From the NCBI RefSeq assembly GCF_024171925.1, contig NZ_JAMTCO010000013.1, positions 62,001-126,000 on the forward strand: 64,000 nucleotides of DNA, read 5' to 3'. The stretch's first letter is position 1, and the number at the start of each line of letters is the position of its first letter. This stretch comes from Actinokineospora diospyrosa (GTDB lineage: Bacteria > Actinomycetota > Actinomycetes > Mycobacteriales > Pseudonocardiaceae). Made by a program: the position numbers and the translations under genes. Below are positions 37,317-56,853 of the stretch, piece by piece. The notes beneath the pieces are model-generated. The model saw only the letters and a program-made list of their open reading frames with translations, did not search any database and was not told the DNA's origin.

Positions 37317-37718
37317 CTACGGCTCGGCGGCCAGGCTCGGCGGCCACAACGACTGGTCCCCGAGCGACGCGATGTGGTCTGCCCGCCGCTCCACCGGCCG
37401 GAGGTCCCCATAGGAAGGCTCGGCCAGGATCGATCGGTCCACGGTGAGCACGATGAAAGCCCATCCCGCCGCGGCACCCAGATACCACCAGTGGAACAAC
37501 CCATTGATCATTGTCAGGTACAGGCACAGCGATAAGCCGCCCATGCCCGCGATGACCAACACGAACACGCCGAGCACAGCCATCCGCGTCCGCTCCACGC
37601 GAGTGGGCAGCAACTCGCTGTCCGCTGTCGCTACCCGGAGCAGTAGCCGCTCAACCGCACCGCCTGACTTCTGCGGTTGGCCCTGATCTTTGCCCTGCTC
37701 CTGTTCGCCCTCTGCCAC
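37317..37718 (-). CDS. DUF4407-like membrane protein, N-terminal part ending at an in-frame TAG
   Basis: 133 residues from GTG 37718, preceded by AGAGGAACGGAC. It carries the N-terminal DUF4407 features: a Gln/Glu-rich start, LLRVATADSELLPTRVERTR, helix 1 AVLGVFVLVIAGMGGLSLCL and helix 2 WWYLGAAAGWAFIVLTVDRSI. The Asp-Arg pair after helix 2 is a family landmark. The frame ends at TAG 37317-37319, but the same frame resumes immediately and supplies the rest of the family, for a combined length of about 439 residues, normal for DUF4407. The TAG is either a true nonsense mutation, a sequencing error or a readthrough site. Confidence 0.6.
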   Translation of the reverse strand: MAEGEQEQGKDQGQPQKSGGAVERLLLRVATADSELLPTRVERTRMAVLGVFVLVIAGMGGLSLCLYLTMINGLFHWWYLGAAAGWAFIVLTVDRSILAEPSYGDLRPVERRADHIASLGDQSLWPPSLAAEP

Positions 37719-38083: not shown

Positions 38084-38473
38084 TTACTGCCTGCTCACGG
38101 CGATCGGGCGGATCACGTAGATGACGCGGTCCGGGGCGTCTTCGGGAGGGCCGTCCATGGGGAGGCTGTAGCGCTTGGCCAGTTCCAGGAAGAACTCCGC
38201 GTCGGCGTCTTTGTCGATTCGCTCTACGGTGCCGCGGATTTCCAAGTAGCGGTAAGGCTGGTCGGGGTCGTTGACCGAGAAGGCCACGACTGGGTTGGTG
38301 GTGACGTTGCGGTATTTGTACCGCGTGGTGGTGTTGGTGAACCGCACGAATTCGCCGTCCCAGTGGAACCACATGGGGTTGACCTGGGGGACACCGTCGG
38401 GGCGGATGGTGGCCAGGTGGGCGAACAGGGGGCGGTCTAGCAGGTCGAGGTGGCTGTCCGGGATCAGGGACAT
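38084..38473 (-). CDS. PPOX-class F420-binding/FMN-like oxidoreductase
   Basis: 129 residues from ATG 38473 with AGGAG 9 nt upstream. A single split-barrel PPOX domain: PLFAHLATIRPDGVPQVNPM, then WFHWDGEFVRFTNTT, VAFSVNDPDQPYRYLEIRGT and RVIYVIRPIAVSRQ at the end. Members of this size in actinobacteria are usually F420-dependent and reduce enoates, biliverdin or pathway intermediates. It is the last gene of the minus-strand operon (exporter, monooxygenase, lactonase-like, PPOX) that carries the inferred SARP-box promoter, so it probably performs a tailoring reduction. Cofactor identity is by family only. Confidence 0.85.
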   Translation of the reverse strand: MSLIPDSHLDLLDRPLFAHLATIRPDGVPQVNPMWFHWDGEFVRFTNTTTRYKYRNVTTNPVVAFSVNDPDQPYRYLEIRGTVERIDKDADAEFFLELAKRYSLPMDGPPEDAPDRVIYVIRPIAVSRQ

Positions 38474-38547
38474 GCGCTGGGGTCTCCTCGTGGGCTGGCA
38501 GCGGGCGTCGAGGGCCAAGGGTGCCGTACTGGCCGGGATCGGGGCGG

Positions 38548-39579
38548 TCAGGGGGTGGCGCGGCGCAGGACGAAGTCGTCGGCGGTGGTGTGGTCGGGGC
38601 CGAACAGCAGTTCCAGGCGGCCGCTGAGGACGTAGTCGCCGTGCGGGGTGACCGCGACGGTGGAGGGGCCGCGGACCGGCCAGGCGGGGTTGGTCCACTG
38701 TTCGCGGGCGGTGCGCCAGCCGTCCGCGGAGGCGAGTACCCGCACCGCGTCCGTCCCGTTTGGACTGCCCAGCGAGTTCGTCACCGCCACGACGGTCCCA
38801 TCCCGACGAACGGCCAGACCGTCCCCGCCGACCAAACGGCCAGGTGTGACAACAGTGCTGACCTTCTTGGTGCGCAAGGAGATCCGGATCAGTCGACCGT
38901 CGCCGGTGTTGACCCCCAACAGGTTCCCGCTCGGGTGGTAGACGATGCCGTTGACGCCGACGCCGTTGCCGTCGGTCAGCGCCGGGTCGCGGACCAGGAC
39001 CGAGGCCTGGCCGCGCGGGGTGATCCGGTAGACGGCGTCGCTGAACACGTCGGCGGCGTAGATGGTGCCGTCGGGGCCGAAGGTGAGGTCGTTGACGGCG
39101 AACGCGGCGCGGGTGGGTTCGAGGCGGGTGAGGTCGACGACGAAGAGCCTGCGGCCGGTGGCCAGGTCGAACACGCCGACACCGCCGACCTTGAGGGTGG
39201 TCTCGGCGGTGGAGCGGGTGGCCACGCCGAGGTCGGCGTAGGCGACCAGGATCCGGCCGCGGGCGGCGTCGACGTGCACACCGTAGCTGGAGATGATCGC
39301 CGGGTCGTCCACCAGGACCCGGGTGCCGCCGTCGCGCCGGACCACCGACACGGTGCCGTGCCTGGCTGAACTGACCAGGAACGCCTGCCGGGTCGGATCC
39401 CAGGTGACGCCCTCCGGGTGTAGCGAGGCGGCGCGTCCCACCAGGTGTGCGGGCAGTCCGTGGTGCCACGAAACGGAAGCAGGGATGGCGGCGGAAGCAG
39501 GAACGGCGGTACCGAGGCAAGCGGCGGCGAGTGCGGCGGCCAGAACGACAGTACGGGTTCGGCGGGTCAACTGCGTCAC
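38548..39579 (-). CDS. Secreted SMP-30/gluconolactonase-like beta-propeller protein
   Basis: 343 residues from GTG 39579, overlapping the monooxygenase TGA (GTGA). The signal peptide RRTRTVVLAAALAAACLGTA ends near ASA-AI. The rest is a six-bladed propeller with SMP-30-type blades: HPEGVTWDPTRQAFLVSS, NDLTFGPDGTIYAADVFSD, VNGIVYHPSGNLLGVNTGDG and DGLAVRRDGTVVAVTNS. The conserved Glu and Asn/Asp residues that bind the divalent metal in lactonases have plausible equivalents (E in HPEGV, N in VNDL, N in VNGI, D in GGDGL). It could hydrolyse a lactone outside the cell, interesting because the same regulon includes an AfsA-type lactone synthase. A non-enzymatic role is also possible. Confidence 0.75.
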   Translation of the reverse strand: MTQLTRRTRTVVLAAALAAACLGTAVPASAAIPASVSWHHGLPAHLVGRAASLHPEGVTWDPTRQAFLVSSARHGTVSVVRRDGGTRVLVDDPAIISSYGVHVDAARGRILVAYADLGVATRSTAETTLKVGGVGVFDLATGRRLFVVDLTRLEPTRAAFAVNDLTFGPDGTIYAADVFSDAVYRITPRGQASVLVRDPALTDGNGVGVNGIVYHPSGNLLGVNTGDGRLIRISLRTKKVSTVVTPGRLVGGDGLAVRRDGTVVAVTNSLGSPNGTDAVRVLASADGWRTAREQWTNPAWPVRGPSTVAVTPHGDYVLSGRLELLFGPDHTTADDFVLRRATP

Positions 39580-41132
39580 CTTTCAGCGGGGTGGGTGGGC
39601 AGGACTGGGCGGAGCACGCGGCGCAGTTCGGCGCGGACCGGACCGAGGTCGGTCACCGGGGCGCACACCGCGACGTGCTGGTCGGGCCGCACGAGCACCG
39701 CGAACGGGCTGCCCTTGGGCCTGCGGTGCAGGGGCAGCCCGGCGCCGGGGAGGCCGAGGCTGCCCGCGGCGGTGTCGAGGACCCGGACGTCGAGCCCGGT
39801 GTCCGCTTCGAACTGCTCGACCACCGACGAGTGGTCGGTCACGTCGCACAGCAGCAGCGTGTGCCGCAGGTCGGACAGGGCGGCGCGCAACGGTGTGCGC
39901 CTGCTGGTGCGCACGTCCCAGACGAGGTGGTCACCCACCAGGGCGCCGGGGGTGAACCCACCCCGTTCCTGTCCACTGTGGATCGAGAAGTATCTGGCGC
40001 GCAACCCGGCAAGAGTTGGCACATAGGACAAGTGCGCGACTCGAGTGGCCGAGGCGACGCGCAAGGCGAGGTCGCGGAGGGCGACCTGGTGCGGCTTGGT
40101 CAGCATCCACGCCTTGGTCTGCGCGTGCGCTTGGCGGACCACGTCCTTGGCGGCCTGACCGCGCTCCTCGGCGTAGCTGTGCAGCAGGTCCTCCCGCGCG
40201 CGCCCCTGCTCGACCAGGGCCAGTTTCCAGGCGAGGTTGTAGGCGTCGTACACGCCGGTGTTGAGGCCCTGCCCACCCGCCGGACTGTGGATGTGCGCGG
40301 CGTCGCCAGCAAGCAGCACCCGTCCGACCATCGGCCGGTCGGCGTGCCTGGCGTGCACGTTGAACGCGCTGATCCAGGAAGCGTCGTGCAGCCGCAGCCC
40401 GCCGGGGCCGCGTTCGTCGACCAGCCGCTGCACCACGTCCAGGTCGGTGCCCGCGCGGGTCAGCTCGGGCGGGGCGGAGGTGAACACCCGGAACTGCCCG
40501 GTGGGCAGCCCGGCGATCACCAGAACCCCTCGTGGGGAACAGAAGTAGTGGTTGTCGTCGTGGGTGAGCGGCCCGTCGAGCCGGGTGTCGGCCACCACGA
40601 AGGTGTGCGGGTAGGTGGCGCCCTCGAAGCCGATGCCCGCCAGCGACCGCACGGTGCTGCTCGCCCCGTCGCAGCCGACCACCCGGGAGAACTCCTCGAC
40701 CTGCTCGCCACCGCGGCTCTCGCGCAGCCGGACGGTGACGTGGTCGTCGTGCTGGACCAGGTCGAGCAGCTCGGTGCCCCGCTCCACCGCGCCGCCCGCC
40801 CGGGTGAGGCAGTCGGCGAGGATGTCCTCCACCTCGGGCTGGGGCAGGATCAGCGGCGCGGTCCGGTCGGGGAACCGGATCCGGGCCACCTGCCGCGCTG
40901 AGGAGTAGTAGCGGAACGAGCGGACCCGCAGCCCCCGCCTGCCCGCCGCGCCGTCGGCGCCGAGCCGGTCGAGGATCTCCACGGTGCGCGGCCACACCCC
41001 GAGCGCCTTGGTCAGCGGCGAGGGCTGGTCGGCCTTGTCGATCAAGCGGACCGGCACCCCGCGGCGCAGCAGCTCGGTGGCCGTTGCCAGACCGACCGGG
41101 CCCGCGCCGACCACCAGGACCGGGCGGTTCAC
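39576..41132 (-). CDS. FAD-dependent aromatic hydroxylase (PHBH/RdmE-type monooxygenase)
   Basis: 518 residues, starting at GTG 41132 that overlaps the exporter stop (GTGA). Class A flavoprotein monooxygenase motifs are complete: VLVVGAGPVGLATATELLRR (GxGxxG, 5-24), the DG motif RVVGCDGASSTVRSLAGI, and the second FAD motif LLAGDAAHIHSPAGGQGLN. The C-terminal thioredoxin-like domain, typical of PgaE/RdmE/MhpA, spans roughly the last 130 residues. Members hydroxylate phenols or polyketide aromatics using NAD(P)H and O2. Its place in a SARP-box operon with an exporter points to tailoring of the cluster product. Confidence 0.88.
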   Translation of the reverse strand: MNRPVLVVGAGPVGLATATELLRRGVPVRLIDKADQPSPLTKALGVWPRTVEILDRLGADGAAGRRGLRVRSFRYYSSARQVARIRFPDRTAPLILPQPEVEDILADCLTRAGGAVERGTELLDLVQHDDHVTVRLRESRGGEQVEEFSRVVGCDGASSTVRSLAGIGFEGATYPHTFVVADTRLDGPLTHDDNHYFCSPRGVLVIAGLPTGQFRVFTSAPPELTRAGTDLDVVQRLVDERGPGGLRLHDASWISAFNVHARHADRPMVGRVLLAGDAAHIHSPAGGQGLNTGVYDAYNLAWKLALVEQGRAREDLLHSYAEERGQAAKDVVRQAHAQTKAWMLTKPHQVALRDLALRVASATRVAHLSYVPTLAGLRARYFSIHSGQERGGFTPGALVGDHLVWDVRTSRRTPLRAALSDLRHTLLLCDVTDHSSVVEQFEADTGLDVRVLDTAAGSLGLPGAGLPLHRRPKGSPFAVLVRPDQHVAVCAPVTDLGPVRAELRRVLRPVLPTHPAER

Positions 41133-42670
41133 GCGGGCTCACCCACCGGCTCCGGCGCGACCTCGGGCGCGGGCTTGTGGCCGGGCAGCAGCACGGCGAT
41201 CACGACCGAGCCGACGACGCAGATCCCGGCGATGAGCCACAGCGTGGTCTGGAAGGCACCGGTGTAGCCGTCGGCGAGGAAACCCGCGAACCCGGCGCGG
41301 TCGGCGTCGGCGACCCGGGACGCGGCCGCGCCGAGGTCGCCCTGCACGACCTGGCTGGCCAGCTCGGAGGTGGCCTCCGCAGGACCGCCACGCAGTCGGG
41401 CCTGGGTGAAGGTGACCAGCAGCGCGCCCATGATGGCGATGGCCACGGCCTCACCGGCCAACCTCATGGTGTTGAACATCCCCGCGGCCATGCCCGCGCG
41501 CTCCGGCTCGACCGAGCTGATCGCGACCCCGTCGAGGATGCCCGCGTTGAGGCCCATGCCCGCGCCGACCAGCAGCAGCGGCAGGGCGATCGCGGCCACG
41601 CCGACGCCGGGGCCGAGCACGCTGGCCAGCCAGGCGGTGCCCACGGCCATGCACAGCAGGCTCAGCACCAGCACGGTGCGGGTGCCCAGCAGCTTGGCCG
41701 CCAGCCAGGCGCCGATCATCGGCACCGCCAGCACCGGCACGGTCAGCAGCAGCATCCGCAGACCCGCGCCCTGGCTGGTGACCCCGTCCACGCCGATGAA
41801 GTACTGGGGGAGCAGGACCGCGAGGCTGACGAACCCGAACGCTGCGACCACCGGCAGCAGGCACAGCGCGACGAACCGGGGTTGGCGGAACAGCGCCAGG
41901 TCGAACATCGGTTGCCGCTGCCGCCGCTCCACGCCGACGAACAGCCGCAGCAGCAGCACGGCCGCCGCGAGCAGCACCAGCACCAGGACGTCGAGCCAGC
42001 CGCGCTGCGGGCCTTCGACGATGGCGAGGGTGAACACGAACAGGCCCGCGGTGAAGGTGGCGGTGCCCAGCCAGTCGACCTTGGACGCGGCCGGGTTGCG
42101 CGACTCGCGCAGCAGCGGGACCACGGCCAGCACGACGACCATGATCAGCAGGTGTGAGAAGAAGACCGAGCGCCACCCGAACGCGCCGATGAGCAGGCCG
42201 GAGGTGCTCGGCCCCAGCGCCAGGCCCGCGCCCGCGGCGGTGCCGAAGATCCCGAAGGCCCGGCCGAGCGCGGCCCCCTGGTACACGTCGGCGATCATCG
42301 CGCTGCCCGCGGTGAGCACCGCGGCCGCGCCGATGCCGGACAGGCCGCGCAGCGCGTCGAGCAGGTAGATGTCGCCCGCGAACGTGCTCGCCAACGAGGT
42401 CAGCGCGAAGATGGCCACGCCGGTGCCGAACATCCGCTTGCGGCCCACGATGTCGGCGAGTGCGCCGAGCGCGAGCATGAAGGTGGCGAAGGTGAGGTTG
42501 TAGGCGTTCACCACCCACTGGGTGGGGGCGAGGGTGGCGTGCAGGTCGGCGGCGATGCTGGGCAGCGCTACCGAGGTACCGGTGAGCGAGGCGGGTAGCA
42601 CCAGCACGGCCGCGCACACGGCGAACAAGGTCAACCCCGGCCGCGCGACCGGTGGGGATGCGGTGCTCAT
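41129..42670 (-). CDS. MFS (DHA2, EmrB/QacA-type) drug exporter
   Basis: 513 residues from ATG 42670. A 14-TM drug:proton antiporter of normal length: LTGTSVALPSIAADL in helix 1, motif A LGALADIVGRKRM, GAGLALGPSTSGLLIG (motif C-like, helix 5) and AGMFNTMRLAGEAVAIA in the second half. It is the first gene after the SARP-box promoter at 42711-42751, and the monooxygenase start overlaps its stop, so exporter and tailoring enzymes are made together. Probable role: export and self-resistance for the cluster product. Confidence 0.9.
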   Translation of the reverse strand: MSTASPPVARPGLTLFAVCAAVLVLPASLTGTSVALPSIAADLHATLAPTQWVVNAYNLTFATFMLALGALADIVGRKRMFGTGVAIFALTSLASTFAGDIYLLDALRGLSGIGAAAVLTAGSAMIADVYQGAALGRAFGIFGTAAGAGLALGPSTSGLLIGAFGWRSVFFSHLLIMVVVLAVVPLLRESRNPAASKVDWLGTATFTAGLFVFTLAIVEGPQRGWLDVLVLVLLAAAVLLLRLFVGVERRQRQPMFDLALFRQPRFVALCLLPVVAAFGFVSLAVLLPQYFIGVDGVTSQGAGLRMLLLTVPVLAVPMIGAWLAAKLLGTRTVLVLSLLCMAVGTAWLASVLGPGVGVAAIALPLLLVGAGMGLNAGILDGVAISSVEPERAGMAAGMFNTMRLAGEAVAIAIMGALLVTFTQARLRGGPAEATSELASQVVQGDLGAAASRVADADRAGFAGFLADGYTGAFQTTLWLIAGICVVGSVVIAVLLPGHKPAPEVAPEPVGEPA

Positions 42671-42710
42671 GATGGGTGGCCCTCCGTCGGGTGGGTGCGT
42701 CGCGCCCAAC

Positions 42711-42751
42711 CCTGTCGACGGGGGCTCAATCAGAACTCAAGGACTGCTCAG
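42711..42751 (-). promoter_or_regulatory. SARP-box promoter of the exporter/monooxygenase operon
   Basis: On the minus strand CTGAG (42751-42747), TTGAG (42740-42736) and TTGAG (42729-42725) are spaced exactly 11 bp apart, as in SARP binding sites. Eight nt later comes GACAGGGTTGGG (from 42716), which would supply the -10 (cAGGGT). The AfsA operon promoter at 47694-47740 has the same three repeats, the same 8-nt gap and GACAGGCTTGGG. The shared layout is strong evidence for common control, most simply by the SARP encoded at 46670. Confidence 0.72.
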
Positions 42752-42821
42752 CGTGGGATGCCGCTGGAAAGCCCAGGGGCGGGTTGACTGCGTAATCCGG
42801 GAGCTGGACCGAGCGGCTCGG

Positions 42822-43694
42822 TTACCCGGCCTCGACCAGGGCGACGCGCCTGGCCTCGTGCTCGAGGAGGGCCTTGAGCTTGGTCATGGTGTCGGTGTGC
42901 GCCTGCGGGGTCTGCAGCACCAGGCGCAGGTCGGCGCGGTCGGCGAGGCGCAGGGTGGTGTGCTCGAAGATCAGGCAGCCCGCCCTGGGGTGCTCGATCG
43001 CCTTGACCCCGCCGGAGTGGTCCTGCACGTCGTGCTTGGCCCACAGCTCGGCGAACTCCGGGCTCTCCTCGCACAACTGCTGGGTGAGCGGGCCGAACAC
43101 CGGGTCGTCCGGGTAGCGGGCGGCGTCGACGCGGAACTCGGACACCACGTGCGGGGCGTAGTCGGCCCAGTAGCGGTAGCGGTTGCGGAAGGCCGGTTCG
43201 GTGAAGTACGCGACGAGGCAGTTCATCGTGTCGCCGTCGCGCAGGCCGAGCACCACCCGGGCGGCGTCGTTGACCGCGCGGACGTTCCAGTAGCGGTCGA
43301 GCACGTAGGCCGGGTTGGGCAGCCAGGTGTCGAGCACCCGGCGCAGCTCCGCGGAGACCTCGGCCTCGTCGGAGGTGACCGGCTGCGGCGGGTTCATCCC
43401 GGCCAGCCGGTAGAAGTGCACGCGTTCGAGCTCGCTCATCCGCAGGGCGACGGCGATGGCGTCCATCACGCTCTCCGAGACCCGGATGTCGCGGCCCTGT
43501 TCGAGCCACATGTACCAGGACGCCCCCACGCCCGCGAGCACGGCGACCTCCTCCCGGCGCAGGCCGGGGGTGCGGCGGCGGCCGCCGCCGGGCAGGCCGA
43601 CGTCCTCGGGGGAGAGCCGGGCGCGCCTGCTGCGCAGGAAGTCCCGCAGTGCCTCGCGGCGCCGGACTAGCTCCGGCGGGCTGGTAGTGGCCAC
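42822..43694 (-). CDS. XRE/MmyB-family helix-turn-helix regulator
   Basis: 290 residues from GTG 43694. The N-terminal XRE helix-turn-helix is preceded by the family start REALRDFLRSRRARLSPEDV, then RRTPGLRREEVAVLAGVGAS and WYMWLEQGRDIRVSESVMDA. The C-terminal MmyB-like domain (from about residue 110: LDTWLPNPAYVLDRYWNVRA onward, with FRNRYRYWADYAP) probably binds a fatty-acid-like or aromatic ligand. It is divergent from the exporter/aldo-keto reductase pair, with overlapping promoters. There is no ribosome site, and TATAGT lies 7 bp upstream of the GTG, so the message is probably leaderless. It probably regulates the divergent exporter. Confidence 0.85.
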   Translation of the reverse strand: MATTSPPELVRRREALRDFLRSRRARLSPEDVGLPGGGRRRTPGLRREEVAVLAGVGASWYMWLEQGRDIRVSESVMDAIAVALRMSELERVHFYRLAGMNPPQPVTSDEAEVSAELRRVLDTWLPNPAYVLDRYWNVRAVNDAARVVLGLRDGDTMNCLVAYFTEPAFRNRYRYWADYAPHVVSEFRVDAARYPDDPVFGPLTQQLCEESPEFAELWAKHDVQDHSGGVKAIEHPRAGCLIFEHTTLRLADRADLRLVLQTPQAHTDTMTKLKALLEHEARRVALVEAG

Positions 43695-43700
43695 ACCACT

Positions 43701-43716
43701 ACTATAAGTTCGAACT
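43701..43716. promoter_or_regulatory. Overlapping divergent promoters with a 10-bp palindrome
   Basis: The sequence actataagttcgaact contains a minus-strand -10 TATAGT (43706-43701), a plus-strand -10-like TATAAG (43703-43708) and a perfect palindrome AGTTCGAACT (43707-43716). The minus-strand hexamer is only 7 nt from GTG 43694, so that regulator message would be leaderless. The palindrome is placed to block both promoters and is the likely operator of the MmyB-type regulator. Confidence 0.55.
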
Positions 43717-43751
43717 CCCCACGGCGGCGCGTCCCCGCTGAGACTGCCACC

Positions 43752-45245
43752 ATGGCAACCGTTCGGCCTACCGACAGCCCCGCGCAGCTCGCGGGCTCGC
43801 GGTACTGGCTCATCCTCGTCCTGCTCTGCGCCGCCCAGTTCATGGTGGCCCTCGACTTCTCGATCGTCAGCGTCGTGCTGCCGACCATCGGCGGGGAACT
43901 CGGCTTCGCGGTCTCGGACCTGCAGTGGGTCGTCACCGCGTTCGCCCTGCCCTGCGGTGGGTTCCTGCTGCTGTTCGGCCGACTCGGCGACCTGCTGGGC
44001 CGCCGCCGGATCTTCCTGGCCGGTCTCGCGCTGTTCACCCTCACCTCCCTGCTCGGCGGCCTGGCCACCTCGCCGTGGATGCTGCTGGCCGCCCGCGCGG
44101 GCCAGGGCCTCGGCGCGGCGATGATCGTGCCCTCCGGCATGGCCCTGATCACCACCTCCTTCCCCGAGGGGCCGCAGCGCGACCGCGCGCTCGGCGTCAA
44201 CGGCGCGCTCATCTCGCTGGGCTTCACCTCCGGCGTGGTGCTCGGCGGCGTCATCGGCGAGGCGCTGGACTGGCGCTGGACCATGCTGATCAACGTCCCG
44301 CTCGGCGCGCTCGTGCTGGTCGCGACCCCGCTGCTGATCGGCGAGAGCCGCAACGCGGGCGACACCTCGCTCGACGTGCCCGGCGCGATCACCGTCACCG
44401 GTGGTCTGCTCGCGGTCATCTTCGGTGTGGCCAGCGCCGAGAAGGACGGCTGGGCGGCGCCGACCACGCTGGTCGCCCTGGTGGTGGGGGTGCTGCTGCT
44501 CGCGGCGTTCCTGGCGATCGAGAAGCGGGCCAGGGCCCCGTTGGCGCCGTTGCACGTGTTGCGCCGCCCGACCGTCGGCTGGGGCAACCTCGGCGGTCTC
44601 ATCACCTTCTCGATGATCACGGCGACCGTGTTCCTGATGACGCTGTACATGCAGCGGGTGCTGGCGTTCAACCCGCTGCAGACCGGGCTGTCGTTCGCCT
44701 CGCTCGGGTTGGCCGCGGTCGTCGGCGGCGCGGCCGCCCCGCGCCTGGTCAAGTCGCTGCAGGGCCGCGGCGCGCTCGTGGTCGGTCTGGTGGTCCAGGG
44801 CATCGGCACCGGCATCCTGTTCTGGCTGTCCTCTTCGGACAGCACGGTGCTGCTGCTCGTCGGTACCGGCATCGCCGGGTTCGGCCACATGGTCGCCGTC
44901 GTCGCCTACTCGATCGTGGCGACCTCGGGTCTGCCCAACGAGGAACAGGGCCTGGCCTCGGGCCTGATCACCACCTCGCAGCTGGTCGGCCTGACCGTGG
45001 GCATCCCGGTGCTCAGCTCGATCGCCACCGGCGGGCTCACCTCGATCACCGACGACGCGACCCGGCTCACCGCCACCCTCGACGGCATCCAGGCGGGCGT
45101 GCTCACCGCGGCGGCGGTCATCGCCTTCGGCGTGCTCACCACGCTGTTGTTCTTGCGGGGCCGCAAGTCCGAGCCGGTGGTCCTCGCCGTGCCCGCGGAC
45201 ACGAGGGCGTCGGACTCCGAGTCCGAAGCCACGGTTGGCAGGTAG
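43752..45245 (+). CDS. MFS (DHA2) drug exporter
   Basis: 497 residues; a second EmrB/QacA-type antiporter in this cluster. Helix 1 contains FMVALDFSIVSVVLPTIGG, motif A is FGRLGDLLGRRRIF, motif C-like LGFTSGVVLGGVIGEALDWR follows, and the last part has LITTSQLVGLTVGIPVLSS. The aldo/keto reductase gene begins 8 nt after its stop. Divergent from the MmyB-type regulator, it is probably induced by the pathway product or an intermediate. Confidence 0.9.
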   Translation: MATVRPTDSPAQLAGSRYWLILVLLCAAQFMVALDFSIVSVVLPTIGGELGFAVSDLQWVVTAFALPCGGFLLLFGRLGDLLGRRRIFLAGLALFTLTSLLGGLATSPWMLLAARAGQGLGAAMIVPSGMALITTSFPEGPQRDRALGVNGALISLGFTSGVVLGGVIGEALDWRWTMLINVPLGALVLVATPLLIGESRNAGDTSLDVPGAITVTGGLLAVIFGVASAEKDGWAAPTTLVALVVGVLLLAAFLAIEKRARAPLAPLHVLRRPTVGWGNLGGLITFSMITATVFLMTLYMQRVLAFNPLQTGLSFASLGLAAVVGGAAAPRLVKSLQGRGALVVGLVVQGIGTGILFWLSSSDSTVLLLVGTGIAGFGHMVAVVAYSIVATSGLPNEEQGLASGLITTSQLVGLTVGIPVLSSIATGGLTSITDDATRLTATLDGIQAGVLTAAAVIAFGVLTTLLFLRGRKSEPVVLAVPADTRASDSESEATVGR

Positions 45246-45253
45246 ATCCGATC

Positions 45254-46291
45254 ATGCGAACCAAGTTCCTCGGCCGCAGCGGCCTGCAGGTGTCCGAACT
45301 GTCCTTTGGTGCCATGACCTTCGGTGGCAGCCACGGCTACCAGCACATCGGCCAGGTGCGCGGTGCGGAGGCGAAAGCCGTGGTGGCGCGGTGCGTGGAG
45401 GCGGGGATCAACCTGTTCGACACCGCCGACGTGTACTCCGGTGGGCGGTCCGAGGAGGTGCTGGGCGAGGCGTTGCGCGGCTTGCGCGACGAGGTCCTGG
45501 TGGCGACCAAGGTCCGCTGGGCGGTGGCGGGCAACGCCGGGCCCAACGACCAGGGCCTGTCGCGGCACCACATCGTGCGCTCGGTGGAGGCCAGCTTGCG
45601 CAGACTGGGCACCGACCACATCGATCTCTACCAGGTGCACGGCTGGGACGGGCGGACCCCGTGGGAGGAGACGTTGCGCGCGCTGGACGATCTGGTGCGC
45701 GCGGGCAAGGTCCGCTACCTCGGCGCGTCCAACCTGGCCGCCTGGCAGCTGACCCGGGCCCTGGGGATCAGTGAGCTGCACCGGTTGGAGCGCTTCGTCG
45801 GCCACCAGATCCAGTACAACCTGGTCAGCCGCGAGGCGGAGTGGGACCTGCTGCCGATGGCCGAGGAGTCCGGTGTGGGCATCACCTGCTGGAGCCCGTT
45901 GGCCGGTGGGTTGCTGACCGGGCACCAGCCGCCGGGGCAGACCCCGCCTGCCGGGACCCGGCGCGCGGTGGGCTACTTCGAGCCGCACGACACCAACCGC
46001 GCCTTCGACACGGTCTCGGTGCTGCGCAAGATCGCCGACAACCGGGGCGTCACACCGGCGCAGGTGGCGATCCGCTGGCTGCTGGAGCAACCGGGGGTGA
46101 GCTCGGTGATCCTCGGCGCGCGCGACTTGGCGCAGTTGGCGGACAACCTGGCCGCCACGACCTGGTCGCTCGACGACACCGAGCGGGCCGACCTGGACCT
46201 GGTCAGCTACTCCCCGCCGCCTTATCCGCACTGGCACCAGATGTCCACCAACGCCGCGCGCGTGGAATCGCCCGGCGGGCTCGACAACTAG
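45254..46291 (+). CDS. Aldo/keto reductase
   Basis: 345 residues from ATG 45254. The AKR catalytic tetrad is present: Asp and Tyr in INLFDTADVYSGGRSEE, Lys in VLVATKVRW and His in IDLYQVHGWDG. NADPH-binding residues are expected in the C-terminal VSSVILGARDLAQLADNL. It resembles the voltage-channel-beta/YajO-type AKR group. It follows the exporter by 8 nt and could reduce a ketone in the product. In A-factor-type pathways a reductase acts on the butenolide intermediate, so a role with the AfsA operon is conceivable but speculative. Confidence 0.9.
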   Translation: MRTKFLGRSGLQVSELSFGAMTFGGSHGYQHIGQVRGAEAKAVVARCVEAGINLFDTADVYSGGRSEEVLGEALRGLRDEVLVATKVRWAVAGNAGPNDQGLSRHHIVRSVEASLRRLGTDHIDLYQVHGWDGRTPWEETLRALDDLVRAGKVRYLGASNLAAWQLTRALGISELHRLERFVGHQIQYNLVSREAEWDLLPMAEESGVGITCWSPLAGGLLTGHQPPGQTPPAGTRRAVGYFEPHDTNRAFDTVSVLRKIADNRGVTPAQVAIRWLLEQPGVSSVILGARDLAQLADNLAATTWSLDDTERADLDLVSYSPPPYPHWHQMSTNAARVESPGGLDN

Positions 46292-46465
46292 TGGCGCGAC
46301 CCAGAACGTCGGCCAAGTCCATTCGGCCCACGACGTGCTTGGCGGTGTTGCCGCAAGCGCCCGAGTGCACCCAGTACGAGGGCGTTGCGCGCCTTGCCTG
46401 CCATGCCGATACGCGGCCAGCGTTCTGGGTCGGGCCACTAGTGGTATCGCGAAGTGGGTCACGCT

Positions 46466-46508
46466 GAGAAGGGCAATGCATCCACCCCAACGGAGCATTG
46501 CCCTTCTC
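46466..46508 (+). terminator. Perfect 14-bp hairpin after the aldo/keto reductase
   Basis: GAGAAGGGCAATGC (46466-46479) and GCATTGCCCTTCTC (46495-46508) pair perfectly around a 15-nt loop, without a following T-run. It is located between the reductase and the SARP gene and may end the first transcript or insulate the SARP promoter. The rest of 46292-46669 has no supported gene. Confidence 0.6.
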
Positions 46509-46626
46509 CCGCGGGCACGAGGAAAGTAGGGCGCGGTCAAGCGGCACCGGATTGGTCCTCGATCCGGTCGGTGAGTTTCGTCAGGACCATCCGGCGAATT
46601 GGTTTCTCTGATACGCTGGCGCAGGC

Positions 46627-46656
46627 TTGACACTCGGCGGGGGTCGACATTAATTC
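46627..46656 (+). promoter_or_regulatory. Promoter of the SARP gene
   Basis: TTGACA (46627-46632) and TAATTC (46651-46656) are separated by 18 bp, a near-consensus vegetative sigma promoter in an unusually AT-rich stretch for this window. Transcription would begin near 46663, only a few bases before ATG 46670, so the GGGGGAA site may be partly outside the message. Confidence 0.55.
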
Positions 46657-46669
46657 GTGGGGGAATTGC

Positions 46670-47581
46670 ATGCCAAGCTTATACGGGGTGGGTCGGGAAT
46701 TCGACGTCGACGGCGTGGTCGACTTCGCTGAATCAGAGGACCCGACCGGCGAGTTACCGTGGTCGACGGCTGCCGGGGTGCGGCTCGGCCTGCTCGGCCC
46801 GCTCACCGTCACCGTCGACGGGCGCGAGGTGCGCCCGAGCGCGGGCAAGCAGCGCCAGGTCCTCGCGCTGCTGGCGCTGCACCGCAACCGGGTGGTGCCG
46901 GTGGACTCGATCGTGCGCGAGGTGTGGCACGACAACCCGCCGCGGTCGGCGCTGACCGCGTTGCAGACCTACATCGGGCAGATCCGGCAGATGTTCGCCG
47001 AGTGCCTGCGCGTCGACCGCAAGGAGGTGGCCGCCAACCGGCTGGTCACCGAGGCGGACGGCTACCGCTTGCTGGTCGAGCCGCACGAGCTGGACCTGCA
47101 CACCTTCGAGACCAGGGTGGTCCGGGCGCGGGCGGGCATCGCGGTCGGCGACCTCGACGCGGCCCGGCGCGACCTGAGCACCGCGCTGCGCTGCTGGCGC
47201 GGCGACCCGCTCGACAACGTCAAGAAGGGCCCGATCCTGCACTGCTGGGCCCGGGGGGTGGCCGACCTGCGGCTGTCGATGCTCGAGCGCTGGATCGAGG
47301 TGAACATGGCGGGCGGGATGCACCGCGACATGCACGCCGAGATCACCCCGCTGTGCGCCGAGCACCCGCTGCACGAGGGCTTCCAGGCGCTGCTGATGAT
47401 GATCCTCTACCGCTGCGGCCGCAGCGCCGCCGCGCTGGATTCCTTTTTGCGCTTTCGCGCGCGAATCATGGACGAGCTCGGCGTGGAGCCGTCTCCGCGA
47501 TTGGTCGGTTTGTACCAGTCCATCCTGATCGGCGACACGGTCCACGAGCCGCTTTCAGCCACGGCCGTACCGGTGGCCTGA
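46670..47581 (+). CDS. SARP-family pathway-specific activator
   Basis: 303 residues, normal for a short SARP. After about 35 residues comes the OmpR-like winged helix (VRLGLLGPLTVTVDGREV, then KQRQVLALLALHRNRVVPVD and LTALQTYIGQIRQMF). The bacterial transcriptional activation domain follows (HELDLHTFETRVVRARAG, LRCWRGDPLDNVK, EHPLHEGFQALLMMILYRCG, MDELGVEPSPRLVGLYQSIL). SARPs bind 11-bp-spaced repeats and recruit RNA polymerase. Two such repeat sets with identical spacing lie at 42725-42751 and 47694-47720, so this protein probably activates both flanking operons. There is no ATPase or TPR extension, so it is not an AfsR-type large regulator. Confidence 0.92.
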   Translation: MPSLYGVGREFDVDGVVDFAESEDPTGELPWSTAAGVRLGLLGPLTVTVDGREVRPSAGKQRQVLALLALHRNRVVPVDSIVREVWHDNPPRSALTALQTYIGQIRQMFAECLRVDRKEVAANRLVTEADGYRLLVEPHELDLHTFETRVVRARAGIAVGDLDAARRDLSTALRCWRGDPLDNVKKGPILHCWARGVADLRLSMLERWIEVNMAGGMHRDMHAEITPLCAEHPLHEGFQALLMMILYRCGRSAAALDSFLRFRARIMDELGVEPSPRLVGLYQSILIGDTVHEPLSATAVPVA

Positions 47582-47693
47582 ATTCAACACGGATTTAGTC
47601 GGCACTGCGGGCGCGTATCGCCTGCGGTGCCGTCGCCATTTTCGGCGGTGCACTTTCATTGCGCGACGAAATCAAGTCGAAGGCGACCAATGG

Positions 47694-47740
47694 GTGAGAT
47701 CGGCTTGAGTTCCGGTTGAGCAGACCGGGACAGGCTTGGG
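47694..47740 (+). promoter_or_regulatory. SARP-box promoter of the AfsA operon
   Basis: GTGAG (47694-47698), TTGAG (47705-47709) and TTGAG (47716-47720) recur every 11 bp. Eight nt later GACAGGCTTGGG begins at 47729, giving a -10 candidate (cAGGCT). ATG-equivalent GTG 47783 follows after about 45 nt with GCGAGGAGACAAC. The layout duplicates that of the minus-strand promoter at 42711-42751 base for base in spacing, which supports both as targets of the SARP just upstream. Confidence 0.72.
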
Positions 47741-47782
47741 GAGCGAGAAACCCCAACCGAACGGCCACCGCGAGGAGACAAC

Positions 47783-48856
47783 GTGACGACCGCACTGGAC
47801 GGGCCGGACCTTTCCCCGGCGCTGGCCGGGCTGCGCTACCTGCGCACTGTGGACAGGTCCCTGCTGCACCGCAGTTCGCTCTCGGAGGTCTTCCTGACCG
47901 ACGCCAGGCGGGTGGGGGAGCGGCGCTACCTCGCCGCCGCGCAGCTGCCCCCGTCGCACGCCTACTACACCGACCACGCGCTGCGAGTGCCCGCCCCGGA
48001 CCCGTTGCTGCTGTTGGAGGTGGTGCGCCAAGCCGAGACCTACGGCGGGCACGCCTACTTCGCGGTGCCCGCCACGACCAAGTTCATCCTGCGGTCGTGG
48101 ACCGTGCGCCTGCCCGGCTTGCTGGCGGCGGGCGCGACCGGGTCCGACGCGGTGGCGCTGGACGTGCGCACCGGCGGCCGCCGGGGGCTGCCCGGCCGAC
48201 TACGGGCGTTGACCTACGACACCGCGGTGTACTTGGGCGGCGTCGCGGTGGGCGAGGTCGTCATCGACGTCGGCTACCTGTCCGGCGAGTCGTACCGGCA
48301 GCTGCGCGTGGACCGGCGCGGCGGGGCCGCCCCGCCGTCCTCTGTGGACATGGCGGTGCCCGCGCCTGGGGTGCCCGCGCGGTTGGTCGGCCGCGGCAAC
48401 CAGGCCAACGTGGTGCTGGCCGAGGCGGAGGTCGACGCCGAGCACGCGGTGGCCGCGCTGCGGGTGCCGGTGGACAACCGCAGCATGTTCGACCACGCCC
48501 AGGACCACGTGCCGGGGATGGTGCTGATGGAGGCGGCGCGGCAGCTGTGCCTGCTGGCGGGCGAGGACTACTTCGCCGCCTCCCCGGCGCGCACCGCGGT
48601 GGTGGGGTTCGACTTCTCCTTCAGCCGCTACGCCGAGCTCGACGCCTCCACCGCGATCACCCTGTTCCGGCCCACGAACGCCGAGCCGGTGCTGGCCGCC
48701 GCGCTACCCGACGTGCGCACCTACCCCGTGCAGTTCGCCCAGCACGGGGAGGCGATCGCGGTCGGCACCATGTCCACCGCCACGTTCACCACCGCCGCGC
48801 TCGCGGGCCCGGCGATCACCGCGGTACCGGTCGTGGCGCCGGGGGCCGGGCGATGA
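47783..48856 (+). CDS. AfsA-family hotdog protein, gamma-butyrolactone-type synthase
   Basis: 357 residues from GTG 47783 (GAGGAGACAAC upstream). Two AfsA repeats, each a hotdog unit: the first around DPLLLLEVVRQAETYGGHAY (about 73-92), the second around DNRSMFDHAQDHVPGMVLME then AARQL (about 231-255). AfsA, ScbA and BarX-type enzymes join a beta-ketoacyl chain from ACP or CoA to dihydroxyacetone phosphate, the first step of A-factor-like butyrolactones; MmfL does so for methylenomycin furans. It heads an eight-gene operon under an inferred SARP-box promoter that also encodes ketosynthases, an ACP and a HAD phosphatase. The product class is inferred as butyrolactone, butenolide or furan. AfsA-like domains of other roles cannot be excluded. 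Confidence 0.85.
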   Translation: MTTALDGPDLSPALAGLRYLRTVDRSLLHRSSLSEVFLTDARRVGERRYLAAAQLPPSHAYYTDHALRVPAPDPLLLLEVVRQAETYGGHAYFAVPATTKFILRSWTVRLPGLLAAGATGSDAVALDVRTGGRRGLPGRLRALTYDTAVYLGGVAVGEVVIDVGYLSGESYRQLRVDRRGGAAPPSSVDMAVPAPGVPARLVGRGNQANVVLAEAEVDAEHAVAALRVPVDNRSMFDHAQDHVPGMVLMEAARQLCLLAGEDYFAASPARTAVVGFDFSFSRYAELDASTAITLFRPTNAEPVLAAALPDVRTYPVQFAQHGEAIAVGTMSTATFTTAALAGPAITAVPVVAPGAGR

Positions 48857-49911
48857 GGATCGCTGGCCGGGTCGGCGTGACGGCCGCGGTCGCGCACTAC
48901 CCCGACACCGTCGAGAAGGCCGTCGACATGGTCGCGGCCGGGCGGATCACCGAGGAGGACGCGGCGGCCACCGGGGTCGAGCAGTTGCCCGTCGCCGAGG
49001 TGCCCGCGCCGCGGCTGGCCGTGGCGGCGGCGCGGACCGCGCTGGCCAGGGCAGGCTGGGACCCGACCCGGATCGGTCTGGCCCTGCACGCCTGGATCTA
49101 CCACCAGGGCCACGACTTCTGGTCCCCCGCGCACTACGTGGCCCACGAGTCGGGTGCCACCGAGGCGCTGCCGATGGGCGTGCAGCAGATGTGCAACGGC
49201 GGCGCGATGGCGGTCGAGGTGGCCGCTGCGCGGCTGCTGTCGGACCCGGCCACCGCGCGGGCGCTGGTCACCACCGGCGACCGGTTCGCCGCCCCCGGTT
49301 TCGACCGCTGGAAGGGCGACTACGGGCTCTGGTACGGCGACGCGGGCACCGCCCTGCTGCTGCACCGCGCCGACCCGGTCCAGCGGCCCGGTCCGCTGGA
49401 CCTGCTGTCGGTCACCTCGCTGGCCGCGCCCGCGCTGGAACTGATGCACCGCGGCGCCGACGAGTTCACCCCGGCACCGCGGGCCGAGGTGGACGTGCGG
49501 CGCACCAAGCGGGACTTCCTGCGCTCGGCGGGCAAAGAGGCGTTCGTCGACACGGTGCGCGCCAAGGTCGCGACCGTGCTGCGCCGGGGCTTGGACGAGG
49601 CAGGGGTCGCCGCGGACGACCCGCGTGTCACCACCGTGCTGCTGCCCCGCCTCGGCGCCACCGCGGCCCGCGACATCTACGGCCCGGTCGTGGGATCGGT
49701 CCTCGGCGCGCCGCTGGTCGACCCGGGCACCCGCACCGGGCACCTGGGCGCGGGCGACGTGCCCGCCAGCCTGGCCGACCTGCTCGACTCCGACCGGCTC
49801 GCCCCCGGTGCGATCGCCGTCCTGCTCGGCGCGGGCGGCGGCTTCACCTGGTCTTGCCTGGTGGTGCGGCGGACCGGCGAGCCGATCAGTACGGAAAGGA
49901 CAGAGAGATGA
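48853..49911 (+). CDS. KAS III-like enzyme with altered catalytic triad, possible acyltransferase
   Basis: 352 residues from ATG 48853, overlapping the AfsA stop (ATGA). The thiolase-fold N-half has a nucleophile Cys in MGVQQMCNGGAMAVEVAAA, and YGLWYGDAGTALLL marks the beta strand after it. In the C-half the FabH triad segments His-Gln-Ala-Asn and Asn-x-x-Ala-Ala are replaced by VLLPRLGATAARDIY and GHLGAGDVPASLADLL. A His and an Asp in that segment recall the KAS III-like acyltransferases of the DpsC/ChlB/CerJ group, so it may transfer an acyl starter rather than condense. Starter priming of the ACP chain is my inference. Confidence 0.8.
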   Translation: MRIAGRVGVTAAVAHYPDTVEKAVDMVAAGRITEEDAAATGVEQLPVAEVPAPRLAVAAARTALARAGWDPTRIGLALHAWIYHQGHDFWSPAHYVAHESGATEALPMGVQQMCNGGAMAVEVAAARLLSDPATARALVTTGDRFAAPGFDRWKGDYGLWYGDAGTALLLHRADPVQRPGPLDLLSVTSLAAPALELMHRGADEFTPAPRAEVDVRRTKRDFLRSAGKEAFVDTVRAKVATVLRRGLDEAGVAADDPRVTTVLLPRLGATAARDIYGPVVGSVLGAPLVDPGTRTGHLGAGDVPASLADLLDSDRLAPGAIAVLLGAGGGFTWSCLVVRRTGEPISTERTER

Positions 49912-50969
49912 GCCACCCGAACCGCGTCGGCCGCGGGGACGACCGCGCGCACCCGTCGCACCGGGCCGCGGTGGTCGACGGGCTCGGCGCGTGGCTGCCC
50001 GAGCGGGTCGTGGACAACCACGAGCTGGCCTCGGTGCTCGACACCTCCGACGAGTGGATCCGCTCGCGCACCGGGATCGGCACCCGGCACCTGGTGGCCG
50101 CCGGTGAGTCCACTTCGGACCTGGCGGTCGAGGCCGGGCGGCGGGCGCTGAAGTCCGCGGGCACCGCCCGGGTCGACGCGGTGGTGCTGGCCACCAGCAC
50201 ACCCGACCGCTCCTGCCCGGCGACCGCCCCCGAGGTGGCGTCCCGGCTGGGACTGGGCGGGGTGGCCGCGTTCGACGTGGCCGCGGTGTGCACCGGGTTC
50301 GTCTACGCGCTGCGGGTCGCGACCGGGTTGGTAGCCACCGGCTGCGACTCGGTGCTGGTGATCGGCGCGGACACCTTCTCCACCATCCTCGACCCTGCCG
50401 ACCGCACCACCCGGGCGATCTTCGGCGACGGCGCGGGCGCGGTGACGGTGCGCGCCGGGTCACCCGGGGAACCGGGCGCGCTGCTCGGGTTCGACCTGGG
50501 CAGCGACGGCGAGCTGGCGGACCTGATCGCGGTGGACGCCGGTGGATCGCGGCAGCGCTCCTCTGGAGTGCCCGCCGCCGAACGGGACCACTACTTCGCG
50601 ATGGACGGCAAGCCGGTGTTCCGGCACGCCGTGCTGCGGATGAGCGAGTCGACCAGGGCGGTGCGCGCCGCGGTCGGCTGGGACGCCGCCGACCGGCTGG
50701 TGGCCCACCAGGCCAACGCCCGCATCCTCGCCGCGGTCGGCGAGCAGTTGGACCTGGCCGACGAGCAGGTCGTGCGCAACCTCGACCGGGTCGGCAACAC
50801 CGTGGCCGCGTCGATCCCGGTGGCGCTGGCCGACGCCGTGGTGGACGGGGCGCTGCGCCCCGGGCACCGCACCCTGCTGTGCGGCTTCGGCGGGGGGCTG
50901 ACCTGGGGGTCGGCCGCGCTCGTCTGGCCGGACCTGACCGTCGAGGCACCGCCGCGACGGCTCCCGTGA
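49908..50969 (+). CDS. 3-oxoacyl-ACP synthase III (FabH-type)
   Basis: 353 residues from ATG 49908, overlapping the previous stop (ATGA). The full catalytic triad is visible: Cys in FDVAAVCTGFVYALRVA, His in RLVAHQANARILAAVG and Asn in RVGNTVAASIPVALADA. The usual FabH start GLGAWLPERVVDNHEL and DTSDEWIRSRTGIGTRHL are intact, and GFGGGLTWGSAALVW closes the fold. It would start chain building by condensing an acyl-CoA with malonyl-ACP, here presumably on the ACP encoded next. Together with the altered KAS III upstream it indicates a dedicated short-chain acyl supply. Confidence 0.9.
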   Translation: MSHPNRVGRGDDRAHPSHRAAVVDGLGAWLPERVVDNHELASVLDTSDEWIRSRTGIGTRHLVAAGESTSDLAVEAGRRALKSAGTARVDAVVLATSTPDRSCPATAPEVASRLGLGGVAAFDVAAVCTGFVYALRVATGLVATGCDSVLVIGADTFSTILDPADRTTRAIFGDGAGAVTVRAGSPGEPGALLGFDLGSDGELADLIAVDAGGSRQRSSGVPAAERDHYFAMDGKPVFRHAVLRMSESTRAVRAAVGWDAADRLVAHQANARILAAVGEQLDLADEQVVRNLDRVGNTVAASIPVALADAVVDGALRPGHRTLLCGFGGGLTWGSAALVWPDLTVEAPPRRLP

Positions 50970-50977
50970 GCACACCG

Positions 50978-50998
50978 ACCCAACACCCAACACCCAAC
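50978..50998 (+). repeat. Three perfect ACCCAAC heptamers in the ACP leader
   Basis: ACCCAAC repeats three times without error (50978-50998), within a 91-bp gap made almost only of A and C on the coding strand. The gap leads to AGGAGAC before the ACP start at 51061. An unstructured A/C leader would favour ACP translation; simple slippage is the other explanation. Confidence 0.6.
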
Positions 50999-51060
50999 AC
51001 CTGACACCGACGACACCCACACCGATGACGACACCCTGCACCCGACAGGAGACACCACTG

Positions 51061-51305
51061 TGAGCACCATCAAGGACCGCCTCGCCGAGCTGCTGCACGA
51101 CGACTTCGGCATCCCCCGCGCGGAACTGGCGGCGAACGGCACCTTCGAGGAGCTCGACGTCGACTCGCTGGTCCTCGTCGAGCTCGCCCTGAAGATCAAG
51201 AAGGAGTGGGGGGTGTTGCTCGCCGAGGGCGAGCTGGAGCCCACGCACACCCTCGACGACGCCGCGGCGCTGGTCGGGGCGAGGGCGAAGGGGGTGGCGG
51301 TGTGA
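51061..51305 (+). CDS. Acyl carrier protein
   Basis: 81 residues from GTG 51061 (CAGGAGACACCACT upstream). The phosphopantetheine serine is in ELDVDSLVLVELALKI (the DSL motif), and the protein has the usual four-helix length and an acidic helix 2. It is a dedicated ACP sitting between the KAS III and KAS II genes, so it should carry the growing acyl chain of this operon and present it to the AfsA protein. The stop overlaps the start of the KAS II gene (GTGA). Confidence 0.92.
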
Positions 51306-52513
51306 CGGCGGAGGTGCTGGTCACCGGGGTCGGACTGCTCACCCCGGCCGGGATCGGGGTGGCCGAGAGCTGGGAGCGGGTGCTGTCCGGGGCGCCCGCC
51401 GCGCGCACCGACCCGGAGCTGGGCGGCGCCATCTCCGCCCGGGTGCCCGGCTTCGACCCGGTGGCCGCGCTCGGCGCCCGGCACGCCTGGCGGCTGGACC
51501 GCTTCACCCAGCTGGCGCTGTGCGCGGTGCGCGAGGCGGTCGCCGACGCGGGTCTCAATCCGTCCACTTGGGACGGTGCGCGGGTGGCCGTGGTGCTGGG
51601 CAACTCGTTGGGCGGCACCGCCACCTTCGAGTCGCAGTACCGGGTGTTCCACGACGGGCACGCCGACGAGGTGTCGCCGCTGATGGTGCCGATGGCCATG
51701 GTGAACATGGTCGCCGGGTACGTGGCCATCGACATCAGGGCCACCGGGCCGAGCCTGGTGACCGCCACCGCCTGCGCCTCCGGCGGGACCGCCGTGGGCA
51801 TCGCGACCGCGCTGCTGCGCTCGGGGGCCTGCGACGTGGCGATCGCAGGCGGCACCGAGGCGGCGATCACCCCGGTCACCATCACCGGGCTGCGCCGGAT
51901 GGGCGCGCTGTCGGGCCGCGACCACGACCCGGCCACCGCCTCGCGCCCGTTCGACCTCGACCGCGACGGGTTCGTGCCCGGCGAGGGCGCGGGCGCGCTG
52001 GTGCTCGAACGGGCCGCCGACGCCCGGGCCCGCCGGGTGGCCGGGTACGCCAGGATCGCCGGGTACGGCGCCTCCTCCGACGCCCACCACGCGACCGCCC
52101 CCGCCCCCGACGGCTCGGGGATCCGCCGCGCGCTGGAGGCGGCGCTGACCGAGGCCGGAGTGGACCCGCGCGCCGTCGACCACGTCAACGCGCATGGCAC
52201 CTCGACCCCGCTCAACGACGTCACCGAGGCCAAGGCGCTGCGCGCGGTGCTCGGCGAGTCGATCGCGGTGACCTCGGTCAAAGGGGTCACCGGGCACACC
52301 CTCGCCGCCGCGGGCGCGATCGAGGCGGTGTGCGCCGCGCTGACCATCCGCGACGGGGTGATCCCGCCGACCGCGGGCACCAAGCAGGTCGACCCGCGGG
52401 TCGAGGTCGACGTGGTGGTCGGGGCCGCCCGCCGGGCCCGGGTCGACGTCGCCGTCAGCACCTCGTTGGGCTTCGGCGGGCACAACGCCGCCCTGGTCCT
52501 CACCGCACCCTGA
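51302..52513 (+). CDS. 3-oxoacyl-ACP synthase II (FabF-type ketosynthase)
   Basis: 403 residues from GTG 51302, overlapping the ACP stop. Start motif VLVTGVGLLTPAG. The Cys-His-His triad is intact: TATACASGGTAVGIATALL, NAHGTSTPLNDVTEAKAL and VKGVTGHTLAAAGAIEAV; SLGFGGHNAALVL is the terminal motif. No chain-length-factor partner (Gln in place of Cys) is present, so this is a FabF/type II FAS-like condensing enzyme, not a minimal aromatic PKS pair. It would elongate the ACP-bound chain. Confidence 0.92.
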   Translation: MTAEVLVTGVGLLTPAGIGVAESWERVLSGAPAARTDPELGGAISARVPGFDPVAALGARHAWRLDRFTQLALCAVREAVADAGLNPSTWDGARVAVVLGNSLGGTATFESQYRVFHDGHADEVSPLMVPMAMVNMVAGYVAIDIRATGPSLVTATACASGGTAVGIATALLRSGACDVAIAGGTEAAITPVTITGLRRMGALSGRDHDPATASRPFDLDRDGFVPGEGAGALVLERAADARARRVAGYARIAGYGASSDAHHATAPAPDGSGIRRALEAALTEAGVDPRAVDHVNAHGTSTPLNDVTEAKALRAVLGESIAVTSVKGVTGHTLAAAGAIEAVCAALTIRDGVIPPTAGTKQVDPRVEVDVVVGAARRARVDVAVSTSLGFGGHNAALVLTAP

Positions 52514-52530
52514 GAGAGGACCGCGTCACC

Positions 52531-56841: not shown

Positions 56842-56853
56842 GAGGGACACGAC

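Follow-up and report, generated by a model that had tools for sequence, protein, structure and literature searches.

Two promoters with a common repeat layout

The stretch of Actinokineospora diospyrosa DNA analysed here (64,000 nucleotides, hereafter the window, to which all positions refer unless otherwise stated) contains a gene for a small Streptomyces antibiotic regulatory protein (SARP; 46670-47581, plus strand) and two putative operons whose promoters carry the same arrangement of short direct repeats. Operon 1 runs on the minus strand from a major facilitator superfamily (MFS) exporter (MFS1), while operon 2 runs on the plus strand from an AfsA/ScbA-type enzyme. SARP box 1 lies ahead of the exporter/monooxygenase operon (minus strand, 42751-42725) and reads CTGAG, TTGAG and TTGAG, separated by cagtcc and ttctga (TGAGCAGTCCTTGAGTTCTGATTGAG at minus 42750-42725, the base before it being C); SARP box 2 lies ahead of the AfsA operon (plus strand, 47694-47720) and reads GTGAG, TTGAG and TTGAG, separated by atcggc and ttccgg (TGAGATCGGCTTGAGTTCCGGTTGAG at plus 47695-47720, the base before it being G). 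Reading both strands bore out the preliminary description, according to which each promoter holds three pentamers at 11-bp spacing (repeats of SARP operators being 11 or 22 bp apart), followed 8 nt after the last TTGAG by GACAGG(G/C)TTGGG. The common layout is TGAG-N6-TTGAG-N6-TTGAG, and the downstream block is present as GACAGGGTTGGG at 42716-42705 (minus) and as GACAGGCTTGGG at 47729-47740 (plus).

Within the window, a 42-nt pattern that includes the -10 element was matched (three mismatches or fewer) in two places, as compared with a mean of 0.10 in shuffled sequence (none of 100 shuffles reached two). Phased TTGAG pairs with at most one mismatch gave four rows, all of them inside the two boxes (shuffle mean 1.06; four rows were reached by one shuffle in 100). 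As no other phased pair was found in the window at this threshold, there is no box before the genes encoding the SARP itself, the MmyB-like regulator (MLTR), the second MFS exporter (MFS2) with its aldo/keto reductase (AKR), or the P450 described below. The genome-wide scan for the repeat and GACAGG layout that had been proposed earlier was also run: in the genome of origin (8.11 Mb, 29 contigs) a 40-nt pattern returned the two boxes as its only exact matches, plus one match with three mismatches (contig C2), which was inspected and dropped as probable chance; the reversed control gave none. TTGAG-N6-TTGAG by itself is not rare (5 places in this genome, 4 for the reversed control), and the weight rests on the third repeat, the -10 element and the pairing of the sites.

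Conservation in Actinokineospora and the family

The region from the PPOX-class oxidoreductase to the HAD-like phosphatase (38084-55186) was recovered in the same order and orientation in A. inagensis DSM 44258 (locus L009 and genome G008, counted as one genome), with protein identities of 60-89%. Both boxes are present at the orthologous promoters (L009, minus 4925 and plus 9900), where the spacers have diverged. In a gapless comparison the repeats were identical in 28 of 28 positions, as against 11/24 for the spacers, 6/20 for the 10 nt that follow the repeats, 9/12 for the -10 hexamer and 7/18 for later bases (repeats versus spacers, 10 nt and later bases together, 24/62: Fisher p = 3.6e-9; versus spacers alone: p = 3.9e-6). 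Beyond these limits the flanks differ: the A. inagensis neighbours belong to other families, and when eight flanking genes of the window were compared with 49.5 kb of the A. inagensis contig, only a short-chain dehydrogenase/reductase (SDR) gave weak matches (31-33%).

Across 16 congeneric genomes the triple repeat occurs in five places (reversed control: one), four of which are the two promoters discussed here, once in each SARP-bearing genome; at E<=1e-60 the SARP is found in the same 2 of 16 as the box pair. The fifth place (genome G002), before a radical-SAM/HemN_C gene, was treated as chance, given that it lacks an xAxxxT in the proper position and that some 0.1-0.5 occurrences (scaled by hand) are expected in 16 genomes. 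With xAxxxT added, the pattern (its -10 part drawn from the four promoters) was matched in four places in two of 390 family genomes, which are again the same four promoters. Chance would give about 0.06-0.45 matches in such a set, so that absence from the other genomes is unsurprising and the weight lies on the fourfold presence. SARP matches (E<=1e-55) were registered in at least 8 and AfsA matches (E<=1e-60) in at least 7 of the 390 genomes, both tallies being lower bounds obtained by scoring, in each genome, just the top 5-6 candidates of a first look; among the candidates scored, only G000 and G008 appear in both lists.

The -10 element

The key positions of a TAnnnT -10 element are A at position 2 and T at position 6. 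The hexamer GACAGG, put forward earlier as the -10, was rejected: its sixth position is not a T, and A. inagensis does not retain it, the full GACAGG(G/C)TTGGG block not being conserved there. The frame lying 2 nt downstream of it (chosen after viewing the four promoters) reads xAxxxT in 4/4 cases, as CAGGGT (42709-42714, minus) and CAGGCT (47731-47736, plus) in the window and as CAGGTT and GAGTCT in A. inagensis. This (C/G)AGnnT frame is the better reading of the -10. Counted from the initial T of the third pentamer, the probable -10 starts 15 nt on in both window promoters (for box 2, from 47716 to 47731). In the part of PMC10936776 available to us, the AfsR-afsS promoter is described with T-27 as the contacted T of the downstream repeat, a 22-bp box ending at -19 and a weak -10, CACTGT; with the afsS hexamer set by convention at -12 to -7, the distance from T-27 to -12 is likewise 15 nt, so the predicted register is that of afsS. 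The boxes also fit the published SARP rule as worded in the accessible portions of PMC10936776 and PMC4393881 (11-bp repeats, with the 3' repeat 8 bp from the -10), the 8-bp distance being found in 4/4 promoters if the repeat is counted as 7 nt (TTGAGNN) before the predicted (C/G)AGnnT.

The SARP activator

The SARP (303 aa) consists of Trans_reg_C (PF00486, 5.7e-8) and BTAD (PF03704, 1.2e-34) domains with no further domains, i.e. the N-terminal OmpR-type DNA-binding domain and BTAD that define a small SARP. It aligns to the SARP domain of AfsR and to EmbR, and its gene lies in the same conserved cluster as the boxed operons, as expected of a cluster-situated SARP regulon. The ortholog in A. 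inagensis is 72% identical and shares the start (MPS); between the two Actinokineospora proteins the recognition helix is identical and the DNA-binding region nearly so, while the first ~40 residues diverge. In alignments read by hand, the AfsR contact residues W74, P79, T88 and R94 are retained, and R92, R87, S91, K95 and Q48 are replaced by Q, Q, G, Q and K, respectively. The gap between the AKR and SARP genes holds a 14-bp inverted repeat (GAGAAGGGCAATGC...GCATTGCCCTTCTC, 46466-46508) whose arms co-vary in A. inagensis; it looks like a terminator, and the SARP gene therefore probably has its own promoter.

Small SARPs with three-repeat operators are on record for DnrI/dnrD, ActII-ORF4, VlmI and FdmR1 (in the sections of PMC10972967 at hand), and the present system resembles them in having a cluster-borne small SARP and three direct repeats before the target promoters. 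It differs from them in its pentamer (TTGAG) and in its targets, which encode an AfsA-KASIII pathway. The repeat of ActII-ORF4 and DnrI is of the TCGAG type. With AfsR-afsS (PMC10936776, in part) it shares the 11-bp repeats, a first contacted T 15 nt before the -10, a poor -35 and the equivalents of W74, P79, T88 and R94; it departs from it in having three repeats rather than two, in lacking the NOD and TPR domains, and in the exchanges at R92, K95 and Q48. As with OtcR and the oxy promoters (PMC4393881, in part), one SARP would serve several promoters of one cluster through 2-3 repeats set at 11 bp and 8 bp from the -10, although the OtcR repeat is a 9-nt unit of the CGGTCGAAG type and the cluster is that of oxytetracycline.

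Genes of the cluster

In operon 1, MFS1 (41129-42670, minus, ATG start; DHA2-like, under the cut-off of that model) is followed by an aromatic-type FAD-binding_3 monooxygenase (FMO; 39576-41132, minus), whose best-scoring PDB sequence is 4k2x, a polyketide oxygenase/hydroxylase. An SGL-like beta-propeller (38548-39441, minus) and an F420-dependent PPOX-class oxidoreductase (TIGR03618; 38084-38473, minus) complete the run, the latter being the last conserved gene on this side. The exporter, monooxygenase and PPOX genes named in the preliminary description were thus all recovered, while its 'lactonase' corresponds to a weak SGL match (28.4 bits, cut-off 26.3).

Operon 2 (all on the plus strand) begins with AfsA (47783-48856; Pfam 1.1e-43, with PF03756 hotdog domains in two stretches), the sole AfsA match at E<=1e-5 in its genome and one that passes the NF041195 model just above cut-off. 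Next comes KS3a (48853-49911), an enzyme like ketoacyl synthase III (KASIII) of the DpsC/ChlB3/CerJ kind. Among solved structures it is nearest to DpsC, yet it has Cys where DpsC has Ser; its C114, H297 and D302 (hand-counted in the DpsC alignment) form a Cys-His-Asp triad that aligns with that of ChlB3, given as C113-H296-D301 in the excerpt available. A FabH-like KASIII (49908-50969), an acyl carrier protein (ACP; 51060-51305), a FabF-like KASII (51302-52513), a 3-hydroxyacyl-CoA dehydrogenase-type protein (HCDH; 52531-54075), a cupin (54090-54527) and a HAD-IB phosphatase-like protein (54515-55186) follow, the last being the final conserved gene of the operon.

Three further genes have no SARP box: MLTR (42822-43694, minus), MFS2 (43752-45245, plus) and AKR (45254-46291, plus). 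They lie inside the conserved cluster and look to be outside the SARP regulon, under separate control. The palindrome GTAGTGGCCACACCACTAC, beside TATAAG at 43684-43702 (at the MLTR start and before the divergent MFS2; one base changed in A. inagensis), is probably the MLTR operator.

Related clusters in Streptomyces

Regions upstream of AfsA were examined for 18 of 26 loci (L009-L026), i.e. 17 besides A. inagensis; L027-L031 were scanned just for TTGAG/TCGAG pairs, and L032-L034 just in the first scan. Ten Streptomyces promoters (L012-L020 and L022), chosen by eye for likeness from the 18 upstream regions, align as TTGAG-N6-TT(T/G)AG with a CTTTG-like pentamer one turn on and GAnAnT 11 nt further. 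The whole-genome pattern built from this alignment recovered the AfsA box in 9/10 Streptomyces genomes, plus two weaker matches; the remaining genome (G394, locus L016) has the repeats TTGAG, TTGAG and CGTAG. In eight of the ten genomes, which are all those where this could be read, a SARP gene whose product is 39-41% identical to that of the window lies on the same contig and strand, 15.6-16.3 kb downstream (in G397 the contig ends too soon, and in G394 a SARP lies at a fitting place, C27:242204, with the shared contig unconfirmed).

These clusters resemble that of the window in their AfsA, DpsC-like KASIII, FMO, KASIII, ACP, KASII, AKR, HCDH and HAD genes, in the TTGAG-type box before AfsA and in the presence of a cluster SARP (the L019 cluster is cut by a contig end). 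In each of eight Streptomyces stretches examined further, an SDR is encoded as well, together with an MFS exporter that has 43-46% identity to MFS2. In contrast to the window, the AfsA operon includes the FMO and an AKR, so that one box is enough, the third repeat is weak, and several clusters have a second AfsA (25-29% identical, in 5/8 stretches, some of which begin past its place). In L072 (635-4660) the second AfsA stands beside two TetR-type genes within this form of the cluster, and the two may form a dedicated butyrolactone signal pair.

The FMO homologue (36-39% identical) sits between the KASIII genes in all ten AfsA operons, so that gene content as well as the boxes joins the two operons of the window. 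Of eight genomes tested (L016 and L019 left out), five have this homologue as their top match to the window FMO, while in three another protein scores higher. In L025 (Streptomyces sp. NBC_01016) a TTTAG-TTGAG-TTTAG box precedes an acyltransferase-like reading frame (so judged by eye from its first residues) and then SDR and MFS matches, in a run divergent from AfsA; a box ahead of an exporter run thus recurs.

A probable single regulon, its rivals and a possible product

We consider it highly probable that the SARP at 46670 is an operator-binding activator of both operons, which would form one regulon within a single natural-product cluster (~38084-55186), as the preliminary description had proposed. 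The geometry of the sites, the conserved boxes, the colinearity, the co-occurrence of boxes and SARP, and the position of the FMO in Streptomyces AfsA operons all support this proposal; a shared and conserved switch beside a probable activator gene makes it very likely that the two operons serve one pathway. In the mechanism that we envisage, SARP monomers would occupy the three TTGAG-type repeats, which recur once per helical turn, and dock sigma region 4 of RNA polymerase in place of the absent -35, which would activate the weak (C/G)AGnnT -10 at its fixed distance and switch on, jointly, the exporter-monooxygenase-SGL-PPOX and the AfsA-KASIII-KASIII-ACP-KASII-HCDH-cupin-HAD operons. Several observations count against it. 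Binding and activation by the SARP are deduced from sequence, and since the base-contacting R92 of AfsR is Q (as is K95, with K at Q48), specificity is not readable from AfsR. The cluster is carried by just one independent congeneric genome, and no phased pair was found in the 3.8-kb stretch that holds the nearest other SARP of the family (L042, 44%). Seven of the 17 relatives lack this box before AfsA: L010, L021, L023, L024 and L026 have none, L011 has just two repeats, and the box of L025 faces away from AfsA. The weak third repeat of the Streptomyces box is accompanied by a -10 one nt further, and other SARPs of those genomes score better than the cluster SARP; in a tree, window and Streptomyces SARPs form separate groups whose sister relation is not resolved (rows L044-L046, which carry an in-frame stop, were used unmended as aligned segments).

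The boxes could be genuine and yet be served by a different SARP of the genome, with the neighbouring one acting elsewhere. A first look at the genome gave 52 SARP-like candidates, and the loss of R92 would suit such cross-regulation, although only the window SARP passes E<=1e-60, and in both congeneric genomes that have them the box pair lies less than 5 kb from the SARP gene; we judge this improbable. More improbable still is that the sites serve a different cluster activator, for instance MLTR, which is conserved and whose stop lies ~70 bp upstream of box 1, since a tandem array of direct repeats, 11 bp apart and at a set distance from the -10, is the layout ascribed to SARPs in the available parts of PMC10936776 and PMC4393881, the box-bearing Streptomyces clusters carry a SARP, and MLTR has its own conserved palindrome. 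Chance, or an unconstrained recent duplication that made the promoters alike, would agree with the GACAGG(G/C)TTGGG block being common to both promoters and absent from A. inagensis. This explanation is already disfavoured and seems to us very unlikely, as the spacers differ between the promoters, both repeat sets are kept in A. inagensis amid divergence, and no shuffle gave two matches.

The boxes would keep their meaning if AfsA made a butyrolactone signal rather than a structural part of the product, SARP control then amounting to positive feedback in a quorum-type circuit. AfsA is the only such enzyme detected in the genome and passes the ScbA/BarX gamma-butyrolactone model, albeit barely (201.7, cut-off 200). 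Against this, it heads a set of genes that includes a dedicated ACP, KASIII and KASII, and in Streptomyces clusters the second AfsA sits apart (beside a TetR gene in L072). As for a butyrolactone receptor, no TetR_N match was found among the called genes of 38084-55186, the nearest one, at 29278, being outside the conserved cluster (the scan covered window genes from 27010 onwards). On balance, we regard such a circuit as unlikely, though it deserves consideration.

Returning to the proposed regulon of the SARP at 46670, regulation and synteny together set the borders of the cluster, place the exporter and the monooxygenase in the AfsA pathway and supply, in the boxes, a motif for further searches; they also suggest that AfsA can be a biosynthetic gene under SARP control, as opposed to one that produces the signal ahead of the SARP. 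The reaction of AfsA enzymes couples dihydroxyacetone phosphate with a beta-ketoacyl chain. The product here may be small and butenolide- or furan-like, with the FMO oxidising it and MFS1 exporting it. With somewhat less than even confidence, we propose that AfsA supplies the core structure of a class of compounds not yet described, built by the dedicated ACP/KASIII/KASII set under a SARP with a TT(G/T)AG code and spread over Actinokineospora, many Streptomyces, Pseudonocardia and Dactylosporangium, the monooxygenase having moved out to the exporter operon, which would have gained its own copy of the box. The switch and its mechanism are of a known kind, while the AfsA cluster is uncharacterised: in the open-licence literature no published match was recognised for AfsA combined with SARP, KAS III, ketosynthase, butenolide, DpsC or CerJ, nor for A. 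inagensis clusters, and the TTGAG found in the available text of PMC6974636 is part of a primer.

Neighbouring genes

Directly after the AfsA operon, a P450 and a 514-aa protein with no Pfam match are encoded (55621-58398) without a SARP box; neither had a match in the A. inagensis stretches examined, and they are probably not part of the cluster. On the other side, two adjacent reading frames (36399-37253 and 37317-37583) match DUF4407 over profile positions 88-296 and 15-69, the latter below cut-off, as if they were a split gene, and adjoin sub-threshold matches to dynamin- and SrfB-like proteins.

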